Assembly (NCBI RefSeq): GCF_900182555.1
Contig: NZ_FXTH01000004.1
Location: 124,001 to 188,000, forward strand
Source: Fodinibius sediminis
GTDB taxonomy: Bacteria > Bacteroidota > Rhodothermia > Balneolales > Balneolaceae
Reading direction: 5' to 3'
Length of the DNA: 64,000 bases
Part shown: in pieces, positions 3,356 through 15,357 of the stretch
Layout of the letters: each line of letters starts with the position of its first letter
Position numbering within the stretch: the first letter of the stretch is position 1
Program-made: the position numbers and the translations under genes
Notes under the pieces: model-generated
Told to the model about the DNA's origin: nothing
Databases searched by the model: none
Seen by the model: the letters and a program-made list of their open reading frames with translations, nothing else

Positions 3356-4045
3356 ATGAAGATCATACTGCTGCATACCAGCCTGCTGGAAGGCAGGGCG
3401 TTATCGGTTGTTCTACAAACCAGAGGATATCACGTCAGTTTAAGCCCATACCAGGGACCCCTCCCCTTTTCCCATTCCCTTTCTGCAGATTCTTTATTTA
3501 TCATCGATACTTCATTATTACCCCAGCTGCAGGAATCCCAGGTAGATTGGCTATGCAAATCGAACCGCTGTATTGTACTGCTGGGAAACTTAGCGCAGCT
3601 ATTTTGGTTTTTTAAATTCGAGGGCCCGAAAAGGGGCTATGTCTGTAAAAACGACCCAATCCGGCACCTTTATTCAGGAATTAAAAAACTGAGTGATGAA
3701 TCGCTTTTCCTCAGCCAAATGGCGCTGGATCTGCTGCACAAAGAGAGGCTGATGAGGCAGCAGTCATTATTCGGGCAAACCCTCGCTCAGTACCTTACCA
3801 AAACGGAGCTTCAAATTATGCATGAGGTGGCAGTAGGAAAGATAACAAAACAGATTGCGGTTGATCGAAATCGGAGCTATCATACCATCAATAATCACCG
3901 CAAGAACATTATCGAAAAACTACGCCTCAACGGGAAGCTTCGACTTGCGCAGTTCTGTTATCAGCAGAAAAATGCCATTCACACCCTGGTATCCCTTCAG
4001 AAAAACAGGGAAACTATTGATAAACTCACCAAAAATGACCAGTAA
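3356..4045 (+). CDS. LuxR-type HTH regulator with degenerate receiver-like N-terminus
   Basis: A 229-residue protein whose residues about 145-205 form a LuxR/GerE-type DNA-binding domain (LTKTELQIMHEVAVGKITKQIA, then a recognition helix with HTINNHRKNI). Residues 1-115 look like a response-regulator receiver fold, with a hydrophobic first strand, an aspartate in FIID (D51) and a late lysine. The acidic pair that normally follows strand 1 is replaced by HTS, so classical phosphorylation is doubtful. It is the first gene of the AT-rich island and points at the exporter genes, so I infer it controls them. A GGAGGG ribosome-binding site lies about 10 bases before the ATG. No sensor kinase gene is nearby. 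Confidence 0.75.
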   Translation: MKIILLHTSLLEGRALSVVLQTRGYHVSLSPYQGPLPFSHSLSADSLFIIDTSLLPQLQESQVDWLCKSNRCIVLLGNLAQLFWFFKFEGPKRGYVCKNDPIRHLYSGIKKLSDESLFLSQMALDLLHKERLMRQQSLFGQTLAQYLTKTELQIMHEVAVGKITKQIAVDRNRSYHTINNHRKNIIEKLRLNGKLRLAQFCYQQKNAIHTLVSLQKNRETIDKLTKNDQ

Positions 4046-4410: not shown

Positions 4411-5601
4411 ATGGAAATATTTCCATCAGAAATTATTGATAATTCAGCAGAAGAAAATTTTCGCAAACACACTGTTGAAACTGAAGTCATATACTCCACA
4501 ACCATCCTGTTGATTTTGGCTGCAATTGCCGCATTGCCATTTCTGTTTGTTGAAGTAAGCGTTCATAGCGGGGGCATCATTACCTCTGTCACCGAGCGGA
4601 ATCAACTTACTTCTCCTGTTACCGGCAAAGTAAAGCATCTGTACATCCATGAAAATCAATCTGTAGCAAGAGGTGAACAGGTTGCAGAAATAGCGTCTCC
4701 CATACTTCAGGAAAAATTAAAGTATAATATCAGCCGTCGGGAAAAAGTTAAGAGCTATCTTCAAGATCTCTCCATACTAATAAATATTGATTCCTCCTCC
4801 ACCCTGCAATCAATTGCCTTGGCCACACCTAAATACCAGCACTCACTACTGCAGTTTCAGCATCGGGTCCAAAGTACCACTCATAAAATTCAAAAGGTGA
4901 GCCAAAGCTATCAGCGAGAACAAAAACTATATGAGCTTGAAATGCTCAGTCCGGCCCAATATGAAAGAGCAAAATTTAAGCTTCAAGCATCCCATAATAA
5001 GCTCCAGCTCCATTTCAAACAGCAGCTGAACAAGTGGCAGTCTGAAGAAATTATGTATCAGGATGAACTGGAGCAGCTTCAGACAAAAAATGAACAACTA
5101 AAAAAAGAACAGCAACAATATATCATAAGAGCCCCGGTAACCGGCACAGTTCAGAATATCAAGGGTTTATATGAAGGGAGCTTCGTATCACAGAACCAGA
5201 AACTAGCTGAAATTTCACCAGATACCCGACTTATTGCTGAGTGTTATGTATCACCAAAAAGTATCGGATTAATCAAAGAAGGAATGAAAGCCCGTTTCAA
5301 GATTTCAGCTTTTGATTACAACCATTGGGGTACCATTACTGGCAAGGTTGAAGAAATATCCAACGATATCAGCATAATCAATAACCAACCTGTTTTTATT
5401 GTACGCAGTGTATTAGACCAGACATATCTTGAACTTAAAAACGGTCATCGGGGAAATCTCAGAAAGGGAATGACCATACAGGCACGATTTTACATTACCC
5501 ATCGAAGCCTTTTTCAACTCCTCTATGACAACGTTGACGACTGGCTGAATCCCAACTGGGACAGCCCGAAACGGGAGGACAACAGGTCTTTTAATAAATA
5601 A
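4411..5601 (+). CDS. HlyD-family membrane fusion protein (peptide exporter adaptor)
   Basis: This 396-residue protein would bridge the inner-membrane exporter to an outer-membrane channel during peptide secretion. Residues about 28-48 are a single membrane segment. The first half of a biotinyl/lipoyl-like domain follows (SPVTGKVKHLYIHENQSV near 68-86). A long coiled coil occupies about 100-235. The second lipoyl half (IRAPVTGTVQNIKGLYEG) is near 238, and a beta-barrel domain ends the protein. This order is typical of adaptors of bacteriocin and RTX-type type I systems. It lies 69 bases ahead of the peptidase-containing ABC transporter, which supports one operon. No TolC-like partner gene is in the window, so a chromosomal one elsewhere is presumed. 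Confidence 0.88.
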   Translation: MEIFPSEIIDNSAEENFRKHTVETEVIYSTTILLILAAIAALPFLFVEVSVHSGGIITSVTERNQLTSPVTGKVKHLYIHENQSVARGEQVAEIASPILQEKLKYNISRREKVKSYLQDLSILINIDSSSTLQSIALATPKYQHSLLQFQHRVQSTTHKIQKVSQSYQREQKLYELEMLSPAQYERAKFKLQASHNKLQLHFKQQLNKWQSEEIMYQDELEQLQTKNEQLKKEQQQYIIRAPVTGTVQNIKGLYEGSFVSQNQKLAEISPDTRLIAECYVSPKSIGLIKEGMKARFKISAFDYNHWGTITGKVEEISNDISIINNQPVFIVRSVLDQTYLELKNGHRGNLRKGMTIQARFYITHRSLFQLLYDNVDDWLNPNWDSPKREDNRSFNK

Positions 5602-5670: not shown

Positions 5671-7875
5671 ATGATGTGGTTCAAAGAACAGAAGATAGGG
5701 ATTAAACAACATGATATCACAGACTGCGGGGCAGCTTGTCTCGCATCCGTAGCCGCCTATTATGAACTTAAGATGCCAATTGCACGCATCCGTCAATATG
5801 CCTCAACCGATAAAAAAGGAACGAATGTTCTGGGGATGATAGAAGCTGCTGAACAATTGGGCTTTACAGCCAAAGGAGTCAAGGGCGACTTTGAGAGCCT
5901 GTTCAAAATCCCAACTCCTGCTGTTGCTCATATTCTGCTGAAAGAGGTTCTGTATCACTATGTAGTCCTTTATGAGGCCAATGACCAACATATTGTGGTC
6001 ATGGATCCACGCGACGGGAAGCTCCATAATATTCCACACGAGGAGTTTAAGAAACAATGGACAGGGGTCCTGGTACTCCTCATGCCGGATGGTAATTTCC
6101 AGAAAGGCAATGAGAAAATATCTATTACCAGCCGCCTGTGGTATCTTTTGAAACCTCACAGAAAAGTTCTACTACAAGCTCTTTTCGGGGCAGCCGTATT
6201 CACAATTATTGGCCTTTCCACAGCTATATTTGTCCAGCTCATCGTTGACCATGTACTACCAGAGCAAAATGAAAATTTGTTAAACCTGCTTGGTATCGGG
6301 ATGTGTATTCTGCTGGTACTGCAAATTTTCATAGGCACTACCAAAACCATATTTACCCTCAAAACAGGTCAGCTTATCGATGCCCGGCTCATCCTGGGAT
6401 ACTACAAGCATCTGTTGAAATTACCCCAGCAATTTTTTGATACCATGCGTGTGGGAGAAATTATATCACGGATCAACGACGCCGTAAAAATCCGAACGTT
6501 CATCAATGATGTTTCAATCAATCTGGCTGTTAATCTATTTGTCGTTCTTTTTTCATTTGGTCTGATGTTCACCTATTTCTGGAAATTGGGTTTGGTTATG
6601 CTGGCTATTATCCCCATGTACATGATCGTCTATGCCATCACCAACACAATCAACAGAAAGACGCAACGCAACGTGATGGAAGATGCAGCGGATCTGGAAT
6701 CACAATTGGTGGAATCCCTTAATTCCGTATCAACGATTAAGCAGTTTGGACTTGAAGAATTCGCTAACCTCAAAACAGAAAACCGTTTTGTCCGGCTCCT
6801 CAAATCCATCTACCGATCAGGGCTGAATTCCGTATTTGCCAGCAACGCCTCAGCCTTTATATCAAAGGTTTTCACCATTATTCTGCTCTGGCTGGGTGCT
6901 TATTATGTGATGGTAAATGTAATAACTACCGGAGAGCTGATGTCTTTCTATTCGGTAATAGGTTACTTTACTGGACCAGCAGAAAAGCTTATAGGTATGA
7001 ATAAGACCATCCAGGATGCCATTATTGCCGGTGACCGACTTTTCGAAATTATGGACCTGGAAAAAGAACAAGAAGGGAAACAGGTGGAACTGCAAGACCA
7101 CATGATTGGCGATATTGTCTTTAAGAATGTCAAATTTCGTTATGGTTCAAGGGTAACCGTTTTTGATAATCTAAGCATCACCATCCCCAAAGGCAGGGTC
7201 ACAGCTTTTGTAGGAGAAAGCGGTTCCGGCAAAACTACCATCATTAATATTCTGCAAAAACTCTACCCACTGGATGACGGCAAGGTACTGATTGGCAATA
7301 TGAACCTGGACTACATGACCAATGCCAGTCTTCGCAAACAAATCTCGGTTGTGCCCCAGACAGTTGATCTCTTTGCTGGAAATGTGATTGAAAATATTGC
7401 TGTGGGTGTCTTTGAACCAGATATGCAGCACATCATTAATATATGTCAAGACCTTGGCATTCTGGACTTCATAGAAGATTTACCTCACGGCTTTGAGACC
7501 TACTTGGGAGAAAACGGAGCTACGCTGTCAGGCGGACAAAAACAACGAATAGCCATTGCCCGTGCGCTCTATACCGATCCTGAAATCCTCATACTGGATG
7601 AAGCCACTTCTTCACTCGATTCCTCATCCGAACAGCACGTGCAACGTGCCCTGCAAGTGCTTAAGAAAAAAGATAAAACAATCATACTTATAGCACATCG
7701 CCTGAGTACTGTCTTTCATGCCGATAAAATATGCGTATTGAGTGAAGGCCAAATTGCAGAAGAAGGCACTCATCAGGAATTGATGGCTAATGAAGAAGAG
7801 TACTACCAACTATGGCAAAAACAGTTCCCCATTCTCAACGGAACATCCTTAGCCGAACTCAAATCATCCCAATAA
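5671..7875 (+). CDS. Peptidase-containing ABC transporter (C39 peptidase, double-glycine exporter)
   Basis: A 734-residue PCAT that would cut a double-glycine leader and export the mature peptide. Residues 1-140 are a C39 cysteine peptidase with catalytic C19 (in DITDCGAACLASV), H96 (HYVVLYE) and D112 (MDPRDG), all present. Residues about 165-450 are the transmembrane domain. The C-terminal nucleotide-binding domain has Walker A GESGSGKTT with K521, the signature LSGGQKQR at 619-626, and Walker B ILILDEATSSLD with D643/E644. The peptidase and ATPase motifs are intact, so it should be active. The length is normal for LagD/PCAT1-like exporters. Two small genes with double-glycine leaders lie just downstream and are the obvious substrates. 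Confidence 0.94.
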   Translation: MMWFKEQKIGIKQHDITDCGAACLASVAAYYELKMPIARIRQYASTDKKGTNVLGMIEAAEQLGFTAKGVKGDFESLFKIPTPAVAHILLKEVLYHYVVLYEANDQHIVVMDPRDGKLHNIPHEEFKKQWTGVLVLLMPDGNFQKGNEKISITSRLWYLLKPHRKVLLQALFGAAVFTIIGLSTAIFVQLIVDHVLPEQNENLLNLLGIGMCILLVLQIFIGTTKTIFTLKTGQLIDARLILGYYKHLLKLPQQFFDTMRVGEIISRINDAVKIRTFINDVSINLAVNLFVVLFSFGLMFTYFWKLGLVMLAIIPMYMIVYAITNTINRKTQRNVMEDAADLESQLVESLNSVSTIKQFGLEEFANLKTENRFVRLLKSIYRSGLNSVFASNASAFISKVFTIILLWLGAYYVMVNVITTGELMSFYSVIGYFTGPAEKLIGMNKTIQDAIIAGDRLFEIMDLEKEQEGKQVELQDHMIGDIVFKNVKFRYGSRVTVFDNLSITIPKGRVTAFVGESGSGKTTIINILQKLYPLDDGKVLIGNMNLDYMTNASLRKQISVVPQTVDLFAGNVIENIAVGVFEPDMQHIINICQDLGILDFIEDLPHGFETYLGENGATLSGGQKQRIAIARALYTDPEILILDEATSSLDSSSEQHVQRALQVLKKKDKTIILIAHRLSTVFHADKICVLSEGQIAEEGTHQELMANEEEYYQLWQKQFPILNGTSLAELKSSQ

Positions 7876-7891: not shown

Positions 7892-8200
7892 ATGGCTTTA
7901 CATACCTATTTAAACCGGATACGACGACTGGATGCAATGATACAAAGAAAAAGTACAGGCCCACCAGAACAGCTGGCCCGGAAACTGGGAATATCAGAGC
8001 GATGGTTATATAAATTTTTACGTGAACTAAAGGAAGAGTTTGACTGTCCCATCACATATGATCACTACCGAAAAAGCTACGTCTATGAAGAAAGGGGGAA
8101 GTTTATCGTAGGCTTTGAAAGTATTTCCAACAGACAACAAAAAGAAATTAGTGGTGGAACTTTAAGAAAATCTGAACGACCGTATTTATTTGTTCAGTAG
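7892..8200 (+). CDS. Small HTH-domain protein
   Basis: A 102-residue protein starting 16 bases after the exporter stop, so almost certainly co-transcribed with it. Residues about 22-55 read as a helix-turn-helix (PPEQLARKLGISERWLYKFLRELKE) of the DeoR/HTH_11 style. After it comes a DHYRKSYVYEERGKF hairpin like the wing seen in small Bacteroidota HTH proteins. No effector domain is present. A local regulator of peptide genes is a reasonable inference but unproven. The C-terminal 30 residues are not recognisable. Confidence 0.7.
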   Translation: MALHTYLNRIRRLDAMIQRKSTGPPEQLARKLGISERWLYKFLRELKEEFDCPITYDHYRKSYVYEERGKFIVGFESISNRQQKEISGGTLRKSERPYLFVQ

Positions 8201-8285
8201 CAGGTCCTTATTTAGAAGTAGAAATCATTATTGAAATGGTTTCATCATAAAAATTATGATAACTAAATATATAAGGCTATTTGAT

Positions 8286-8456
8286 ATGGATAATTTAGAT
8301 AGAATGGGGTTAATCGAGATTAAATCAGAAACTCAAATAAAAACTTATGGTGGAAGAATATTCTGGGGGCTTCTTGGAGCAGCTATTTATGATTGTATTG
8401 CCAACCACGAAACTTTCACCAAAAGCTTTAAGGAAGGCTATAAAGATCATAGTTGA
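8286..8456 (+). CDS. Double-glycine leader peptide 1 (putative bacteriocin precursor)
   Basis: From the ATG at 8286 this gene encodes 56 residues; an in-frame ATG at 8256 would add ten. The leader MDNLDRMGLIEIKSETQIKTYGG has 23 residues and ends in Gly-Gly. It has hydrophobic residues at about -12 and -5 (I...I), like leaders cut by C39 peptidases. The predicted mature part has 33 residues, begins RIFWGLLGAAIYDC, carries one cysteine and ends in a basic, hydrophilic tail (KSFKEGYKDHS). That pattern fits a class II, non-lanthionine bacteriocin or signal peptide. No modifying enzyme was seen. It lies 85 bases after the HTH gene and ahead of peptide 2. The core family was not recognised. Confidence 0.72.
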   Translation: MDNLDRMGLIEIKSETQIKTYGGRIFWGLLGAAIYDCIANHETFTKSFKEGYKDHS

Positions 8457-8515
8457 AAGAATAATACTTTATCAATAATTCTAAACACGTTTTTGTTATG
8501 GGCTATAAAAACCTT

Positions 8516-8686
8516 ATGAAAACATGCAATATAGAGAACTTAACTGAAACTGAAATCAGAAAAATTAATGGAGGAAAGAAAGATGGAACGCTTGCTGATG
8601 AAATAGGATACTTCCTCGGTAGTATATGGGGATCTATCGTAACTTCACATCGAGCAAGAGCTCGTGGCCAGCTACTAGCTCATTAA
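8516..8686 (+). CDS. Double-glycine leader peptide 2 (putative bacteriocin precursor)
   Basis: Starting at the ATG at 8516 (an ATG at 8498 would add six residues), the product has 56 residues. The 20-residue leader MKTCNIENLTETEIRKINGG is a textbook double-glycine leader: L at -12, E-I at -8/-7, I at -4, then GG. The predicted 36-residue core contains GYFLGSIWG, two overlapping GxxxG motifs of the kind that drive helix pairing in two-peptide (class IIb) bacteriocins. It ends in the basic tail SHRARARGQLLAH. The gene sits directly upstream of a strong terminator, so it closes the transcription unit. Peptides 1 and 2 could be the two partners of one bacteriocin. Confidence 0.8.
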   Translation: MKTCNIENLTETEIRKINGGKKDGTLADEIGYFLGSIWGSIVTSHRARARGQLLAH

Positions 8687-8726
8687 TTTGATTGATGGTT
8701 AATTAGCTATTCCATTTTAATTTTTT

Positions 8727-8761
8727 GATGACGACAAGGTTTCTTGTCGTCATCATTTTTT
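8727..8761 (+). terminator. Rho-independent terminator after the peptide genes
   Basis: A perfect 12-bp stem, GATGACGACAAG / CTTGTCGTCATC with loop GTTT (8727-8754), is followed by a T-run to 8761. It ends the unit containing the exporter and both peptide genes. Confidence 0.92.
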
Positions 8762-8806: not shown

Positions 8807-9682
8807 ATGAATAATTCAAACATATTCATAATATTAAAATCAACTTTATCCTCATTATTTTTAGCGCTATTATTTATTTATATAATAGGGGGAATTTGGC
8901 TGTTCCCCTTCAATTTTCTTCTTCCCCAACACTTTAACAACTTCAGCGCCATCACTATTATTGGAAGAGTCATTGAACGTACTGGTTTTTTAATCATCTT
9001 TCTTACGACTCTACTAACCATAAAAGAAATCTACCATAATTTTAATGGTTATTTGCCTTCAGCTGATCTTTACTGGCGCGAAAGAATCTATATATTCTCT
9101 AAAACTGCACTTATAACCTTTCTATGCCTGACTGTCACTTACCTAGTTGCCATTTTAAGTGGATTAGTGAAAATAGATTTTTACAGTGACCATCTATTCA
9201 TAAGTGATTTTTCATCCAGTCTATATTCTTTCTTTTTCTTGGGGATTATCGGTCATTTTTTTGTTGCAATCGGAGAGGAAATGGTCTATCGTGGATTGAT
9301 ATTTAGGTATCTCTTACAAAAAGCCGAAAATACTCAAGTAGCAATAGTAATTTCCTCTCTCATTTTTTCATTATTCCATTTTCATTATACCGAACCACTG
9401 TCGTTTGTACTTGCTTTTTTAGGAGGGTACCTTTTTGCTCTTATCTATTTTCTGTCGGGTACCCTACTTTATTCGATCAGCATTCATTGGACTTTTAACC
9501 TCTTTATGCACGTTTTCACGCCTGGTCATAAAGACTACCAAGTAAATTACCTTAACCTTGAGATACCAGTTATTCCTGGATGGGGGACTTATTTCGACCT
9601 TGTTAAAATAGGAGCTATCATAATGGCAATTATCGCCATATCAGTACTAAAAGTTCAGGGATTCCAAAAAACTAAACTTTAA
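8807..9682 (+). CDS. CPBP-family intramembrane glutamic endopeptidase
   Basis: A 291-residue polytopic membrane protein with the CPBP (Abi, Rce1-like) signature: motif 1 GEEMVYRG with E157, E158 and R162, motif 2 near FSLFHFHY (about 185-192), and a C-terminal SIHWTFNL segment with another conserved histidine and asparagine region. Seven or eight hydrophobic segments are visible. Homologues in bacteriocin clusters of lactic acid bacteria act as immunity proteins. Given its place just behind two leader peptides, self-protection is the best guess, with peptide processing as the alternative. The ATG at 8807 is preferred over a TTG at 8780. A terminator separates it from the peptides, so it has its own promoter. 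Confidence 0.85.
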   Translation: MNNSNIFIILKSTLSSLFLALLFIYIIGGIWLFPFNFLLPQHFNNFSAITIIGRVIERTGFLIIFLTTLLTIKEIYHNFNGYLPSADLYWRERIYIFSKTALITFLCLTVTYLVAILSGLVKIDFYSDHLFISDFSSSLYSFFFLGIIGHFFVAIGEEMVYRGLIFRYLLQKAENTQVAIVISSLIFSLFHFHYTEPLSFVLAFLGGYLFALIYFLSGTLLYSISIHWTFNLFMHVFTPGHKDYQVNYLNLEIPVIPGWGTYFDLVKIGAIIMAIIAISVLKVQGFQKTKL

Positions 9683-9698
9683 TCTTAATCAAAACTTT

Positions 9699-9922
9699 AT
9701 GGATGCTCCATCTTTTAAAAAATCGCCCTAACCTTCATGGGCGCCCTTGGCGGCACCCTGCTATACTGGGGCAGTATACAGTTCTGGGATACCGGCACTA
9801 TCAACATCCCGGAACTGCTCTTTACCCCTGCCCCCTGGATCGTGGCCAGCGTATGTTCTATTGGCCTCTCCTTCTGGAACATCCTGTTTCCTAATAACGA
9901 TCAGTCGATCATGGAAAGCTAA
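9699..9922 (+). pseudogene. Frameshifted paralogue of the small membrane protein at 10629
   Basis: The frame from the ATG at 9699 reads MDAPSFKK and then stops after an A6 run at 9717-9722. One extra A would restore KIALTFMGALGGTLLYWG and continue to the stop at 9922. That continuous product would align along its whole length with the 74-residue protein at 10629 (VVTFLGALGGTLLYWG). A 61-residue remnant could still be made from the ATG at 9737. The single-base loss in a homopolymer could be true decay, a sequencing slip or a slippery frameshift site. The encoded family was not recognised; it has two hydrophobic segments. Confidence 0.75.
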
Positions 9923-10185: not shown

Positions 10186-10410
10186 ATGTTAGATGATATG
10201 GATATTTTACTAAACCCAAGTCTTCAACATTTCAACTTATATCTAATCATACTCATCATCACAGTAGGCCTTTTCTATGGTGTTAAGTACAAACGAAAAA
10301 ATAACCTATATAAAAAAGTATATGAGATATCTTACTGGTTATTAACTTTTATAATAATTTTTGAAGTTTTATATCTATTAGCAATACCAGCATATAATTA
10401 TATTAAATAA
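10186..10410 (+). CDS. Small two-TM membrane protein (immunity candidate)
   Basis: A 74-residue, AT-rich gene for a protein with two membrane segments, about residues 18-34 (LYLIILIITVGLFYGV) and 50-70 (WLLTFIIIFEVLYLLAIPA). They are joined by a short basic loop (KYKRKNNLYKK). No family was recognised. Small membrane proteins of this shape beside bacteriocin genes are often immunity proteins, but that is inference from position only. An ATG at 10198 is an alternative start. No good ribosome-binding site is visible, and a perfect hairpin ends nine bases upstream. Confidence 0.6.
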   Translation: MLDDMDILLNPSLQHFNLYLIILIITVGLFYGVKYKRKNNLYKKVYEISYWLLTFIIIFEVLYLLAIPAYNYIK

Positions 10411-10628
10411 CCTGTTAACTTAATTATAGACATAATACGAATCTCAGAGTCCTAATTATGCCGTACAAGAGCATCTCCTAAGCGATTATATTTAAAACGC
10501 TCCATAAACAACAGAACCGGTCTTTCCGGGTAGCAGCTTCCACCGCTCTTCTACCGTAGATGTATCGGTATCTAAGCCTTCAACATGGCCGTATCCTCTC
10601 ATGCCAATCCCAACAAACCACCGCCATC

Positions 10629-10853
10629 ATGAAGAAACAACCAGTCAAGCGCATCGTCGTCACCTTCCTGGGCGCCCTCGGCGGCACCCTGCTCTACTGG
10701 GGCGGCCTGCAGCTCTGGGACACCGGCGCCCTCGATATCCCCGGGCTGCTGCTTGCCCCCGACCCCTGGATCGTGGCCGGCGCCTGTACCGCGATCCTCA
10801 CCCTCTGGAACCTCCTGTTTCGCAGGGACGGGCCGTCGACGGCGGAAGGCTGA
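10629..10853 (+). CDS. Small two-TM membrane protein, intact copy
   Basis: A 74-residue protein, starting MKKQPVKRIVVTFLGALGG, with hydrophobic segments at about 9-25 and 43-62 and a basic N-terminus, so probably N-in. It is GC-rich like the flanking chromosome. Its frameshifted paralogue lies at 9699-9922, inside the AT-rich island; parts of the two copies are nearly identical (GALGGTLLYWG, WDTG, PWIVA). No family is recognised. The ATG at 10629 is chosen because homology with the paralogue starts there; an upstream frame extension is not conserved. Confidence 0.65.
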   Translation: MKKQPVKRIVVTFLGALGGTLLYWGGLQLWDTGALDIPGLLLAPDPWIVAGACTAILTLWNLLFRRDGPSTAEG

Positions 10854-12597: not shown

Positions 12598-14661
12598 ATG
12601 AAGCAACTCAGCCTGTGCTGCCTGCTGATCCTGCTGCTTACTTCGGCCCTGCAGGCGCAAAAACGATACGACCAGCTCGAATACCCCGAACTCAACGACT
12701 TTCAGAAACCGGAAATCCAAACGTTCACCGCCGACAACGGCGTCACATTCTTCCTGCTGGAAGACGACGAACTGCCCCTCATCGACCTTTCCGTGACCAT
12801 CCGGACCGGCGGCGTGCAGGTGCCCAACGAGAAAGCCGGGCTGGCCGCCATGACGGGGCAGGTGATACGCTCCGGGGGCACCCCCTCTCATCCGGCGGAC
12901 TCGCTCAACGCACTGCTTGAAAACAGGGCGGCCCGCATAGAGACGGGCATCGGCTTCAGCTCGGGCTCGGCCGGCATGAACGTACTGAAAGAGGATTTCG
13001 ACGAGCTGCTGCCGGTGCTGGTCGACCTGCTGATGAACCCGGCTTTCCCGGAAGACAAGATCGAGCTGGCCAAGACCCAGCAGAAAAGCAGCATATCGCG
13101 CCGGAACGACAATGCCGGGCCCATCGCCGCCCGGGAGTTCGACAAGCTGATCTACGGCGACGACAGCAAGTACGGCCGCCTGGTGGAGTATGAAACGGTC
13201 AATAGCGTCAGCCGCGACGATATGGTCAGCTTCCACAAGCAGAACTTCACCGGCCGGAATATGCTGGTGGGCGTGGTGGGCGATTTTGACGCCGGTACAA
13301 TGAGAGAAAAGCTCGTGCAGGCCTTCGGCCGGATACCGGAGGGAACGCCCAATACCCTCCCCTTCCCCGAGGTCGACTACGACTACACCAGCTCCGTCAA
13401 CTTCATCAACAAGGCGGATGTCAACCAGAGTACCGTGCTGCTGGGCCATATCGGGGGCATGCGCGACAACCCCGACTACCCGAAGGTGCAGGTGATGAAC
13501 AACGTGCTCAGCGGGGGCTTCTCCGGCCGGCTCTTCCAGAAGGTCCGCACGGATATGGGCCTGGCCTATTCGGTCGGCGGACAGTACGGCATGAGCAACA
13601 CCTTCTACCCGGGGCAGTTTTACGTGCAGGTACAGACCAAGAGTGCCTCCACGGCAGAAACCATTGATGCCATCATCCGGGAAATCAGGCGCCTGCAGGA
13701 CGAACCTATCACGGAGCAGGAACTGCAGAATACCAAGGACCAGTTCCTGAACTCCCTGGTATTTCGCAATGCCAGCTTTGAGCAGATCCTGAACCGCCGG
13801 ATGAGCAACGAGTACCGCGGCCTTGCCGAGGACGCCTTTGATGAGTTTATTGCGGGCGTCCGCGCAACAACCGTGAAAGATGTGCAGCAGATGGCCCGGG
13901 AATACCTGCACCCGGATGACCTTCAGATCCTGGTGGTCGGCAACAGGGAGGAGATCGGGGACCAGCTGCAGAAATACGGCACAGTCAATGAAATCGATAT
14001 CCGCATTCCCCGGCCCGGCACCGAAAGTACCGAAACGGTACAGGGCGACCCGCAGAAAGGAGCCGAACTGCTCAATGAGATGGCCGAGGCCGTAATCCAT
14101 CCCGGTACGGGGCTTAACAGCCTCTCCGTGACGGGCGAGGTGGTTCAGGGCGGACAGACCATCGGTACCTCCATGACCATTCACTACCCGGACGCCATTG
14201 AGCAGACGATCGAGGCTCCGATGGGGCAGGTTCAGCTCTCCTATAAAGGGGGAAGCGGGACGATGACCATGGGCGGGCAGCAGCGGCCGCTGCCTCCGCA
14301 GATGGCCAATGGCCTCAAAAGTACGCTGAATCGGAGTTTCATGGCTATTGCCATGAGCCATGAGGAACTGAATCCGCAATTCCTGGGCACCGAAGAGGTC
14401 GACGGCCAATCGTACCGGAAGGTGAGCGTGCAGGTCGACGGCACCCCCGTTACGCTGCTGCTGGACCCTGAGACGAAGCTGCCCCGGATTCAGCGGTACC
14501 AGCAGTTCAACCCGCAGCAGGGCCAGCAGGTGACCATTGAAAATCATTACTCCGACTGGCAGACCGTCGATGGCGTCCGTTATCCCTATCACCAGGTCAC
14601 CTTCATGAACGGCACCCAATCGGCAGAGGCATCCTACGAAAGTCACGCCGTTAACGAGTAG
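12598..14661 (+). CDS. M16 family protein, non-catalytic partner with C-terminal extension
   Basis: A 687-residue exported protein. The signal peptide KQLSLCCLLILLLTSALQAQ is clear from the ATG at 12598; an ATG at 12541 overlapping the previous gene would hide it. Residues about 25-470 have the M16 fold, but the HxxEH position reads MTGQVIRSGG, so zinc binding is lost. The R/Y-type substrate pair region GLAYSVGGQYG is kept, as in beta subunits of two-chain M16 enzymes. Residues about 480-687 form an extra domain with beta-strand repeats (GEVVQGGQTIGTSMTIHYPD, VDGVRYPYHQVT) that resembles LolA-like outer-membrane lipoprotein domains. It probably works with the preceding catalytic subunit. Confidence 0.86.
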   Translation: MKQLSLCCLLILLLTSALQAQKRYDQLEYPELNDFQKPEIQTFTADNGVTFFLLEDDELPLIDLSVTIRTGGVQVPNEKAGLAAMTGQVIRSGGTPSHPADSLNALLENRAARIETGIGFSSGSAGMNVLKEDFDELLPVLVDLLMNPAFPEDKIELAKTQQKSSISRRNDNAGPIAAREFDKLIYGDDSKYGRLVEYETVNSVSRDDMVSFHKQNFTGRNMLVGVVGDFDAGTMREKLVQAFGRIPEGTPNTLPFPEVDYDYTSSVNFINKADVNQSTVLLGHIGGMRDNPDYPKVQVMNNVLSGGFSGRLFQKVRTDMGLAYSVGGQYGMSNTFYPGQFYVQVQTKSASTAETIDAIIREIRRLQDEPITEQELQNTKDQFLNSLVFRNASFEQILNRRMSNEYRGLAEDAFDEFIAGVRATTVKDVQQMAREYLHPDDLQILVVGNREEIGDQLQKYGTVNEIDIRIPRPGTESTETVQGDPQKGAELLNEMAEAVIHPGTGLNSLSVTGEVVQGGQTIGTSMTIHYPDAIEQTIEAPMGQVQLSYKGGSGTMTMGGQQRPLPPQMANGLKSTLNRSFMAIAMSHEELNPQFLGTEEVDGQSYRKVSVQVDGTPVTLLLDPETKLPRIQRYQQFNPQQGQQVTIENHYSDWQTVDGVRYPYHQVTFMNGTQSAEASYESHAVNE

Positions 14662-14699
14662 AGTAGCGTGCCTCCTCCTGCTCCAGGCCCGTGCGGGCA

Positions 14700-14724
14700 A
14701 GCCGGGGCAAGACCGTCCCCGGCT
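14700..14724 (+). terminator. Possible terminator of the M16 operon
   Basis: The 8-bp stem AGCCGGGG / CCCCGGCT is followed by CGTTATTT, a weak T-rich tail. It lies 39 bases after the second M16 stop codon. Confidence 0.55.
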
Positions 14725-14808
14725 CGTTATTTGGTGAAGATACTCACCATTAAAATTTGTATCATGCTCATTTTGTCAACCCCTGAACCCAAACCTTAGA
14801 TACAGCCC

Positions 14809-15357
14809 ATGTCATTTTTAACCTGGGAGGACAATCATCCCGCCCCTTCGGAATACCATGAGTTCTACGACCGGTACATCAGTCTCGTAACGGCCCCAAA
14901 TGTAATTCAGATGCTTATCCAGCAGGGCCAGGAGGTGTTCACCCTCATTCAGCAGCTGGACTATGAGCAGTCCGGGTATCGCTATGCGGAAGGAAAATGG
15001 AGTGTAAAAGAGGTGATTGGCCATCTCATTGACAACGAACGCGTCATGGCAGCCCGGGCGCTCAGGATTGCACGCGGCGAGCAGCAGTCGCTGCCGGGCT
15101 ATGACCAGGATGCCTACGTGGAAAAAGCCCGCTTTGACCAGCGGAACCTCCAGAGCCTGTCGGCCGAATATGATGCCCAGCGCAATGCCAACGTCAGCCT
15201 GTTCAACAGCTTTACCGAAGAGCAGACCAGGGGTATGGGTACCGCCGACGGAAAACAGGTTTCCGTTCGGGCCCTGGTCCATATCATTGCGGGGCATGAA
15301 CAGCACCACCTGTCAGTACTGGAAGAAAAATACCGACTTGAAATTTTTGCCGACTAA
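14809..15357 (+). CDS. DinB family protein
   Basis: A 182-residue four-helix-bundle protein of the DinB/YfiT superfamily. The three metal-binding histidines can be placed: one in EVIGHLIDNERV (about residue 71) and two in HIIAGHEQHHL near the C-terminus. Members include bacillithiol- and mycothiol-dependent S-transferases and damage-inducible proteins of unknown activity. The tryptophan in KWSVKEV is also typical. The substrate cannot be assigned. It seems to be a single gene, with a hairpin-forming repeat downstream. Confidence 0.85.
   Translation: MSFLTWEDNHPAPSEYHEFYDRYISLVTAPNVIQMLIQQGQEVFTLIQQLDYEQSGYRYAEGKWSVKEVIGHLIDNERVMAARALRIARGEQQSLPGYDQDAYVEKARFDQRNLQSLSAEYDAQRNANVSLFNSFTEEQTRGMGTADGKQVSVRALVHIIAGHEQHHLSVLEEKYRLEIFAD

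Follow-up and report, generated by a model that had tools for sequence, protein, structure and literature searches.

The two small genes that lie side by side at 8286..8456 and 8516..8686 in this part of the Fodinibius sediminis genome raise a simple question: do they encode the two halves of a two-peptide bacteriocin, as a sequence-only reading had suggested? We examined them in their window, the 64,000-nucleotide stretch of DNA in which all coordinates below are counted, and in related genomes. At a probability of roughly three in four, we consider that these genes specify both subunits of a class IIb-like (two-peptide) bacteriocin; a C39 transporter would export it, a CPBP protein would protect the producer, and an upstream element would serve to control the genes. 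The killing and the synergy between the peptides are predictions from sequence.

The host genome is that of a Fodinibius, and the genes sit in an island of low GC content (0.32-0.45 between ~3.5 and 11 kb in 1-kb windows, with ~0.6 on both sides). Here the plus strand carries, in order, genes for a LuxR-type regulator, an HlyD-type adaptor, a C39 transporter and an HTH protein, the two precursor genes, a terminator, and genes for a CPBP/Abi protein and a 74-aa membrane protein. The LuxR-type (GerE) regulator (3356..4045; Pfam GerE, 7.1e-12) has relatives in the corresponding position at L030, L031, L032 and L041, all of them Fodinibius loci (tblastn, 4 of 18 loci). The HlyD-type periplasmic adaptor (4411..5601) matches Pfam HlyD_3 at 2.9e-20 and TIGR01843 at 8.8e-38, the latter below that family's cut-off. 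With its C39 peptidase, membrane and ATPase domains, the peptidase-containing ABC transporter (5671..7875; Pfam C39, 1.2e-34) matches PCAT1 (4ry2) at 2.9e-167 across residues 4-717, and C19, H96 and D112 can be read by eye as its triad. It is the sole C39 match at E <= 0.001 in the host genome (97.9% complete), which holds one C39 transporter and one HTH gene of this kind. An M16 peptidase gene pair adjoins the transporter set in four other genomes (G001, G010, G051 and G007), as it does in the window; the M16 identity comes from Pfam for the window pair, L032 and L028, and from inspection by eye at the other loci. The gene of a small 'ALGGTLLYWG' protein is present in two copies, at 9737-9922 and 10560-10853 of the window, on either side of the 74-aa gene. 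Since the first copy lies inside the low-GC island, a duplication may have been the point around which the island was inserted or rearranged.

The first precursor begins with the ATG at 8286 and consists of the leader MDNLDRMGLIEIKSETQIKTYGG (23 residues; 8286-8354) and the core RIFWGLLGAAIYDCIANHETFTKSFKEGYKDHS (33 residues; 8355-8453), with the stop at 8456. The second begins with the ATG at 8516 and consists of the leader MKTCNIENLTETEIRKINGG (20 residues; 8516-8575) and the core KKDGTLADEIGYFLGSIWGSIVTSHRARARGQLLAH (36 residues; 8576-8683), with the stop at 8686. The lengths originally read from the sequence, 23 and 20 for the double-glycine (GG) leaders and 33 and 36 for the cores, are thus borne out, and the leader scores agree: a matrix trained on 44 stand-alone Balneolales leaders, both window leaders among them, gave 24.0 for the first precursor and 29.8 for the second, against a maximum of 11.9 in a background of 118,579 windows from proteins >300 aa. 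A six-frame scan of the 64-kb window found no ORF besides the two precursors above the leader cut of 7.15. The two genes had also been described as sharing a terminator, and a single terminator-like hairpin with a T-run (13 pairs; 8726..8755) does stand behind both; it has the longest stem of seven terminator-like sites between 3 and 10.5 kb, where 5.2 are expected.

Leaders of the PCAT family fit the pattern L(-12)xxxE(-8)L(-7)xxxxG(-2)G(-1), according to the part of the PCAT1 report available (PMC6959990). An alignment of the leaders with C39 substrates, which the sequence-only reading had proposed as a check, comes out well for the second leader, which fits the whole C39/PCAT pattern (L-12, E-8, I-7, I-4 and GG at -2/-1), and only in part for the first, where I-12 and GG fit the PCAT1 consensus and T-8, Q-7 and T-4 depart from it, its matrix score still being 24.0. 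These departures, and start codons that are uncertain for both genes (in-frame ATGs also lie upstream, at 8256 before 8286 and at 8498 before 8516), leave some room for the GG motifs being incidental and the small ORFs unexpressed or not C39 substrates. We consider this very improbable, as the leader scores lie far beyond the background, the pair is conserved in another genus and sits behind a C39 transporter, and an upstream element described below precedes a pair at 4 of 4 sites in the genome. On the preferred, bacteriocin reading, the transporter's C39 domain would recognise both leaders and cleave after GG, and the mature peptides would be exported through the transporter-HlyD conduit.

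How the two genes behave in relatives bears on whether they work together. Among 116 relatives, trusted matches to the second peptide come from the window's own genome (two) and from Rhodohalobacter sulfatireducens (G051; L028/L051), in which both genes are adjacent, in the same order and behind the same HlyD-transporter-HTH set; identity to the window is 55% for the second precursor and 45% for the first. On contig 2 of the host genome, a second, diverged pair (L029) again has the same order, with a CPBP gene downstream; the transporter was not found in the 16 kb around this pair. Profiles built from these three pairs (window, L029 and Rhodohalobacter) revealed further relatives in three genomes (G073, G001 and G088). 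Profile matches in G010 (mainly the leader covered) and G063 (partial) were dropped, and second-peptide matches in G103 and G070, which lie within a long frame or across stops, were taken as chance. The transporter and HTH genes are conserved among relatives, while the peptides behind them differ, and most loci hold two genes of unlike type. In one locus of G073 (L167; contig 2, 1776-1392), the first gene resembles the usual second peptide by eye (its end reads DVARSGVGSMVR); this pair looks reversed, so the gene order is not fixed.

Alternatively, the genes might encode two separate single-peptide bacteriocins with nothing in common but a promoter and a terminator. Single-peptide bacteroidetocins do occur in the phylum, according to the portion of that report at hand (PMC6671954), a few loci carry three peptides or just one (L033, L042 and L112), and the GxxxG evidence discussed next is weak. 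We nevertheless find two unrelated bacteriocins unlikely: Rhodohalobacter and the host's second pair both keep the two genes side by side in unchanged order, and two unlike genes are present at most loci, while the reversed pair of L167 does not discriminate between the possibilities. For the two-peptide bacteriocin that we favour, both peptides would act jointly on the membranes of related bacteria.

Class IIb peptides are expected to carry a GxxxG or GxxxG-like motif in both partners, as stated in the part of the source available (PMC8538875). The second window core has two overlapping GxxxG motifs (GYFLG and GSIWG), which had been taken as a mark of class IIb; they are indeed there, although 7% of shuffles of the same core have at least two. 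The first core has no GxxxG, its sole similar motif being a GxxxA (GLLGA), in line with the GLLGAA stretch described earlier. A basic tail had been attributed to both cores, and this holds for the second (net charge +2) but not for the first, whose net charge is 0 and whose tail is mixed. There is one cysteine in the first core and none in the second. Compared with shuffles, GxxxG is over-represented among second cores (11 of 15, p 0.003) and among first cores (9 of 15, p 0.01), in a set that was picked by eye and includes related members; GxxxG alone is weak evidence for class IIb. An AlphaFold2 model of the second precursor (from 2 sequences) has helices at 11-17 and 26-55 with a mean pLDDT of 69.8, and says nothing on pairing.

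Some peptides of relatives match a curated class IIb family. In TIGR03949 (class IIb lactobin A/cerein 7B; cut-off 21.5 bits), the second peptides of L032 (28.4 bits) and L030 (22.4), which are congeners' peptides at this same locus, exceed the cut-off, as does the first peptide of a Belliella locus (L059; 24.4 bits). These are the 3 of 19 further peptides from relatives that pass, and their matches begin 9 residues into the precursor and hence rest partly on the leader. The window peptides have no TIGR03949 match at E <= 10, and both new pairs of the host genome (L127 and L128, see below) stay below its cut-off. For NF038034/NF038035 (lactococcin G/enterocin 1071; cut-off 37 bits), the window's second peptide reaches 16.6 bits at best, mostly on the leader; this lactococcin G-beta match, far below the cut-off, is the sole NCBIfam match of the window peptides. 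None of 19 related peptides reaches 37 bits (best 24.9), and neither window precursor matches Pfam at E <= 1. The earlier statement that the cores match no recognised bacteriocin is consistent with these searches, in which neither window peptide rises above any curated family cut-off. Compared with the lactococcin G subunits, the window cores give p values of 0.06 and 0.11, which are not significant. As a further candidate for such kinship, the second core of L104 scored p 0.002, yet that of L055 fitted the 'wrong' subunit at p 0.001. Given the window values and this match to the wrong subunit, we do not claim homology to lactococcin G. Matches from PDB profile searches with both peptide families were taken as chance.

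Characterised two-peptide bacteriocins come from Gram-positives, at least according to the available portion of one review (PMC6957408). Like the Gram-positive class IIb systems (lactococcin G, enterocin 1071, lactobin A/cerein 7B, plantaricins EF and JK), the window encodes a pair of short, dissimilar peptides in neighbouring genes, with GG leaders, a C39 transporter alongside and GxxxG in the second peptide. Membrane proteins, some of them Abi, provide immunity in those systems, and here a CPBP/Abi protein is a candidate by its position. The window differs in that its host is Gram-negative with an HlyD adaptor, its first peptide is without GxxxG, and the pairs lie scattered in the genome with a common element. 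The class II microcins of Enterobacterales resemble the window, as far as the available descriptions go, in being Gram-negative with a GG leader and a C39 transporter. They also have an adaptor, but are single, longer peptides. The PCAT1/CtA system of Clostridium thermocellum has the same transporter architecture as the window; an HlyD adaptor and a leader-bearing HTH protein, both present in the window, are not described in the available part of its report (PMC6959990).

Within the Bacteroidota, the bacteroidetocins share with the window their type of host and GG peptides beside a C39-type transporter. The accessible sections of their report describe single 42-residue peptides with four cysteines, a thiol oxidoreductase and no obvious immunity proteins (PMC6671954), whereas the two window peptides contain a single cysteine between them and are accompanied by candidate immunity genes; the window thus lacks the four-cysteine single peptide that defines that group. 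In Bacteroides dorei, also a member of the Bacteroidota, BAGEL/antiSMASH have labelled several small genes next to an ABC transporter as 'class IIb'. This is annotation; pairing, an element and an HTH leader are not described in the part of the paper available (PMC11944543). Because of these predictions, class IIb annotation is not itself new in the phylum.

The genes downstream are consistent with immunity. The CPBP/Abi (Rce1-like) membrane protease (8807..9682; Pfam PF02517, 5.6e-18) has the motifs EEMVYR, FSLFH and HWTFN; according to the available part of the review (PMC6957408), certain two-peptide bacteriocins have immunity proteins from the Abi family, in which the motifs EXXXR and FXXXH occur. 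CPBP/Abi proteins stand behind the window pair, the L029 pair and the pairs of two other Bacteroidota (L103 and L104), and tblastn with the window protein gave no match near the Rhodohalobacter pair. The window CPBP gene lies behind the terminator and is tied to the pair by position only; it is a candidate immunity gene, whose product would protect the producer. A CPBP relative in F. halophilus (L030, 5915-5055) is broken by one in-frame stop. Small membrane proteins stand behind several other pairs, and loci with similar pairs share them (L034/L037, Z 25; L039/L055, Z 21; L120/L122, Z 15). A DUF3267 putative zincin peptidase follows directly behind third-kind pairs (L128 and L036) and 1 kb behind the L049 pair. 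A further membrane-protein family, mostly ending in P-x-YNY, is found at L030, L032, L033 and L052, and has members in the window and in Rhodohalobacter as well, though the pair there is of another type. The window member is the 74-aa membrane protein (10186..10410), which ends in PAYNYIK, has no Pfam match and is related to these proteins behind the different pair type. Because it accompanies another type of pair, it may be an orphan immunity gene directed at the bacteriocin of a sibling. Relatives with membrane proteins matched to their pairs make specificity and immunity directly testable. Together with the conserved pairs, the class IIb matches of relatives, the C39 transporter and the shared element, these downstream Abi/CPBP or membrane proteins strengthen the original suggestion of a two-peptide bacteriocin.

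GG peptides from such transporters serve communication besides competition, as noted in the available part of one source (PMC7018657), and the window peptides might accordingly be signals (pheromones) rather than killers, with the LuxR-type or HTH protein on the response side. Regulators do belong to the gene set. Between the LuxR and HlyD genes of three other Fodinibius loci there is also a GG peptide with an acidic core (L030, 11132-10956; L031, 11391-11218; L032, 4145-4321; for example STDTGVWDDPNDPDDGGCIPDPFRDLLKDNN), which looks more signal-like than the window pair and may be a signal for the LuxR-type regulator; the same gap in the window has no ORF above the leader cut. That the pair itself is a signal seems improbable to us, since it comprises two co-linear peptides with hydrophobic stretches, the membrane proteins fit the pair type in several relatives, no histidine kinase is among the genes annotated at the locus, and the peptides vary widely while the transporter and HTH protein are conserved, as expected of weapons.

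Putative bacteriocin pairs of this kind may be under common control. By aligning the DNA before the first peptide gene, we saw a 20-bp, partly palindromic element (ACTGTATNTATNNNTNCAGT; ACTGNA-N8-TNCAGT), of which 16 Balneolales loci contain 17 copies 59-88 nt before the start codon of a GG-peptide gene (the window, L028-L037 with two sites in L030, L049, L052, L053, L120 and L121). In a decayed locus (L042) the distance is 304 nt. Seven Balneolales GG-peptide loci have no element within two mismatches (L038, L039, L040, L041, L043, L055 and L122); four of them (L038, L039, L040 and L055) have, on inspection by eye, a variant of it (ACTGCTGTATAA.TGCA.T). The operator- or promoter-like window element (ACCGTATTTATTTGTTCAGT; 8179..8198) has one mismatch, overlaps the end of the HTH gene and lies 88 nt before the first peptide gene. 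A 21-mer version is found once in the window (with two mismatches) and in 0 of 100 shuffles. In the whole 4.43-Mb genome, allowing <=3 mismatches, it has four sites, compared with one for a reversed control pattern. All four stand about 63-88 nt before a pair. Two of the pairs were known and two were found from the motif alone (L127 and L128); each of the latter consists of two GG-peptide genes, and the first of these starts about 63 nt behind the element in one case and about 72 nt in the other. A single genome thus seems to combine four pairs with one transporter and a common control element.

Following the element into other genomes of the order uncovered further peptide genes, in G046 (contig 76) and in G073 (contig 2). 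Of 19 exact sites, 13 precede a GG-peptide gene, three are at a contig end (one in G133, two in G094) and three do not precede one, namely those in G005 and G021 (both TCCAGT) and one on G094:C57, where the downstream ORFs look decayed. Among one-mismatch sites newly examined, 1 of 36 precedes peptides, and the motif is therefore informative only in nearly perfect copies; a site within one mismatch is present in 55 of 128 genomes, mostly without meaning. Two of the host genome's four sites, the window's included, have one mismatch.

The binder of the element is most probably the HTH protein. Wherever an exact site stands before a peptide gene, the genome also carries the HTH gene, sometimes damaged (in G121, G130 and G131 its presence is inferred from peptides that are the same as at L052, L049 and L053). 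The LuxR gene, by contrast, is found in 4 of 18 loci, all Fodinibius, and this difference makes the HTH protein the first candidate. Such a DNA-binding protein would control the four pairs of the genome in common through the element, which may instead be a promoter element rather than an operator. The element is also found before pairs without an adjoining HTH gene (L029 and L120) or with a decayed one. In the latter case (L121, upstream of 7026; G001 C1:1017873-1018043), an HTH gene with two stops stands before an intact element and a satellite pair, which suggests that the element has outlived the HTH gene.

The HTH protein itself has a further feature. This small winged-HTH protein (102 aa; 7892..8200) contains a C39-type leader near its C-terminus: residues 74-89 (GFESISNRQQKEISGG; codons at 8111..8158) score 20.9, again against the background maximum of 11.9 in 118,579 windows, with a matrix that was not trained on HTH proteins. 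I-12, I-4 and GG fit the C39/PCAT pattern, and Q at -7 and -8 do not. Of 47 HTH proteins scored, 16 exceed the background maximum, the window's included, and the leader is also present in other Bacteroidota families (e.g. L102-L106, L108 and L110-L113). In the AlphaFold2 model, HTH and strands extend to residue 73, followed by a helix (80-87) just before GG with a pLDDT near 60; the leader helix of PCAT1 spans -10 to -4, as given in the available part of its report (PMC6959990). Foldseek with the model returned nothing at E <= 0.001, with winged-helix matches ranking top.

Leader-bearing HTH genes are also associated with peptides. GG-peptide genes lie <=2.5 kb downstream of 27 of 28 leader-bearing and 6 of 17 leaderless HTH genes (Fisher p 1.2e-5), and outside Balneolales the counts are 12 of 12 and 3 of 13 (p 1.1e-4); as the HTH sequences are related, these p values are only a guide. 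The test covered 45 of the 47 HTH genes, two loci at contig ends (L054 and L108) being left out. L035, L101 and L109 have GG by eye, score below the cut and were counted as leaderless; L043 is above the cut without a true GG, and the downstream peptide count of L061 includes the neighbouring HTH gene's own tail.

A speculative possibility is that the HTH protein uses this leader to sense the transporter. The leader would dock on, or be cut by, the C39 domain, and the regulator would thereby signal whether the exporter is free or occupied by bacteriocin precursors, switching the scattered pairs via the element. This is a tentative proposal, which we rate at well short of even. Binding may be weak, because the Fodinibius tail has Q at -7, a hydrophobic contact position in PCAT1. 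The export of FlgM in flagella is a parallel in logic to an export-coupled switch. If true, several Bacteroidota families would possess a gene switch coupled to export by a peptidase ABC transporter; it would link export capacity to transcription and provide a signature of DNA and protein for finding such regulons. As another possibility, we considered the short tail of the HTH protein (IYLFS, YLFVQ or SLYV) as a pheromone in Balneolales. Among 14 HTH genes, the element is read in frame 0 in one, frame 1 in six and frame 2 in seven; as it is the DNA that is conserved, not the peptide, and it is read in three frames, we rejected this explanation for Balneolales.

In the literature we searched, we found no experimentally characterised two-peptide bacteriocin from Bacteroidota, no class IIb report in Balneolaceae or Fodinibius and no HTH protein with a C39 leader. 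In a mining study of Bacteroidales, one cluster has an HTH gene, and no leader is mentioned in the available part (PMC10352776); a survey, likewise available in part, reports a Bacteroides cluster with a transporter, HlyD and a GG-peptide gene (PMC4573289). The loci of other Bacteroidota that we examined have no element site before a peptide gene. In several of them (L103, L108, L110-L112 and L059 at 14564-14926), the HTH tails after GG share an ILDGTLISLL-like end.
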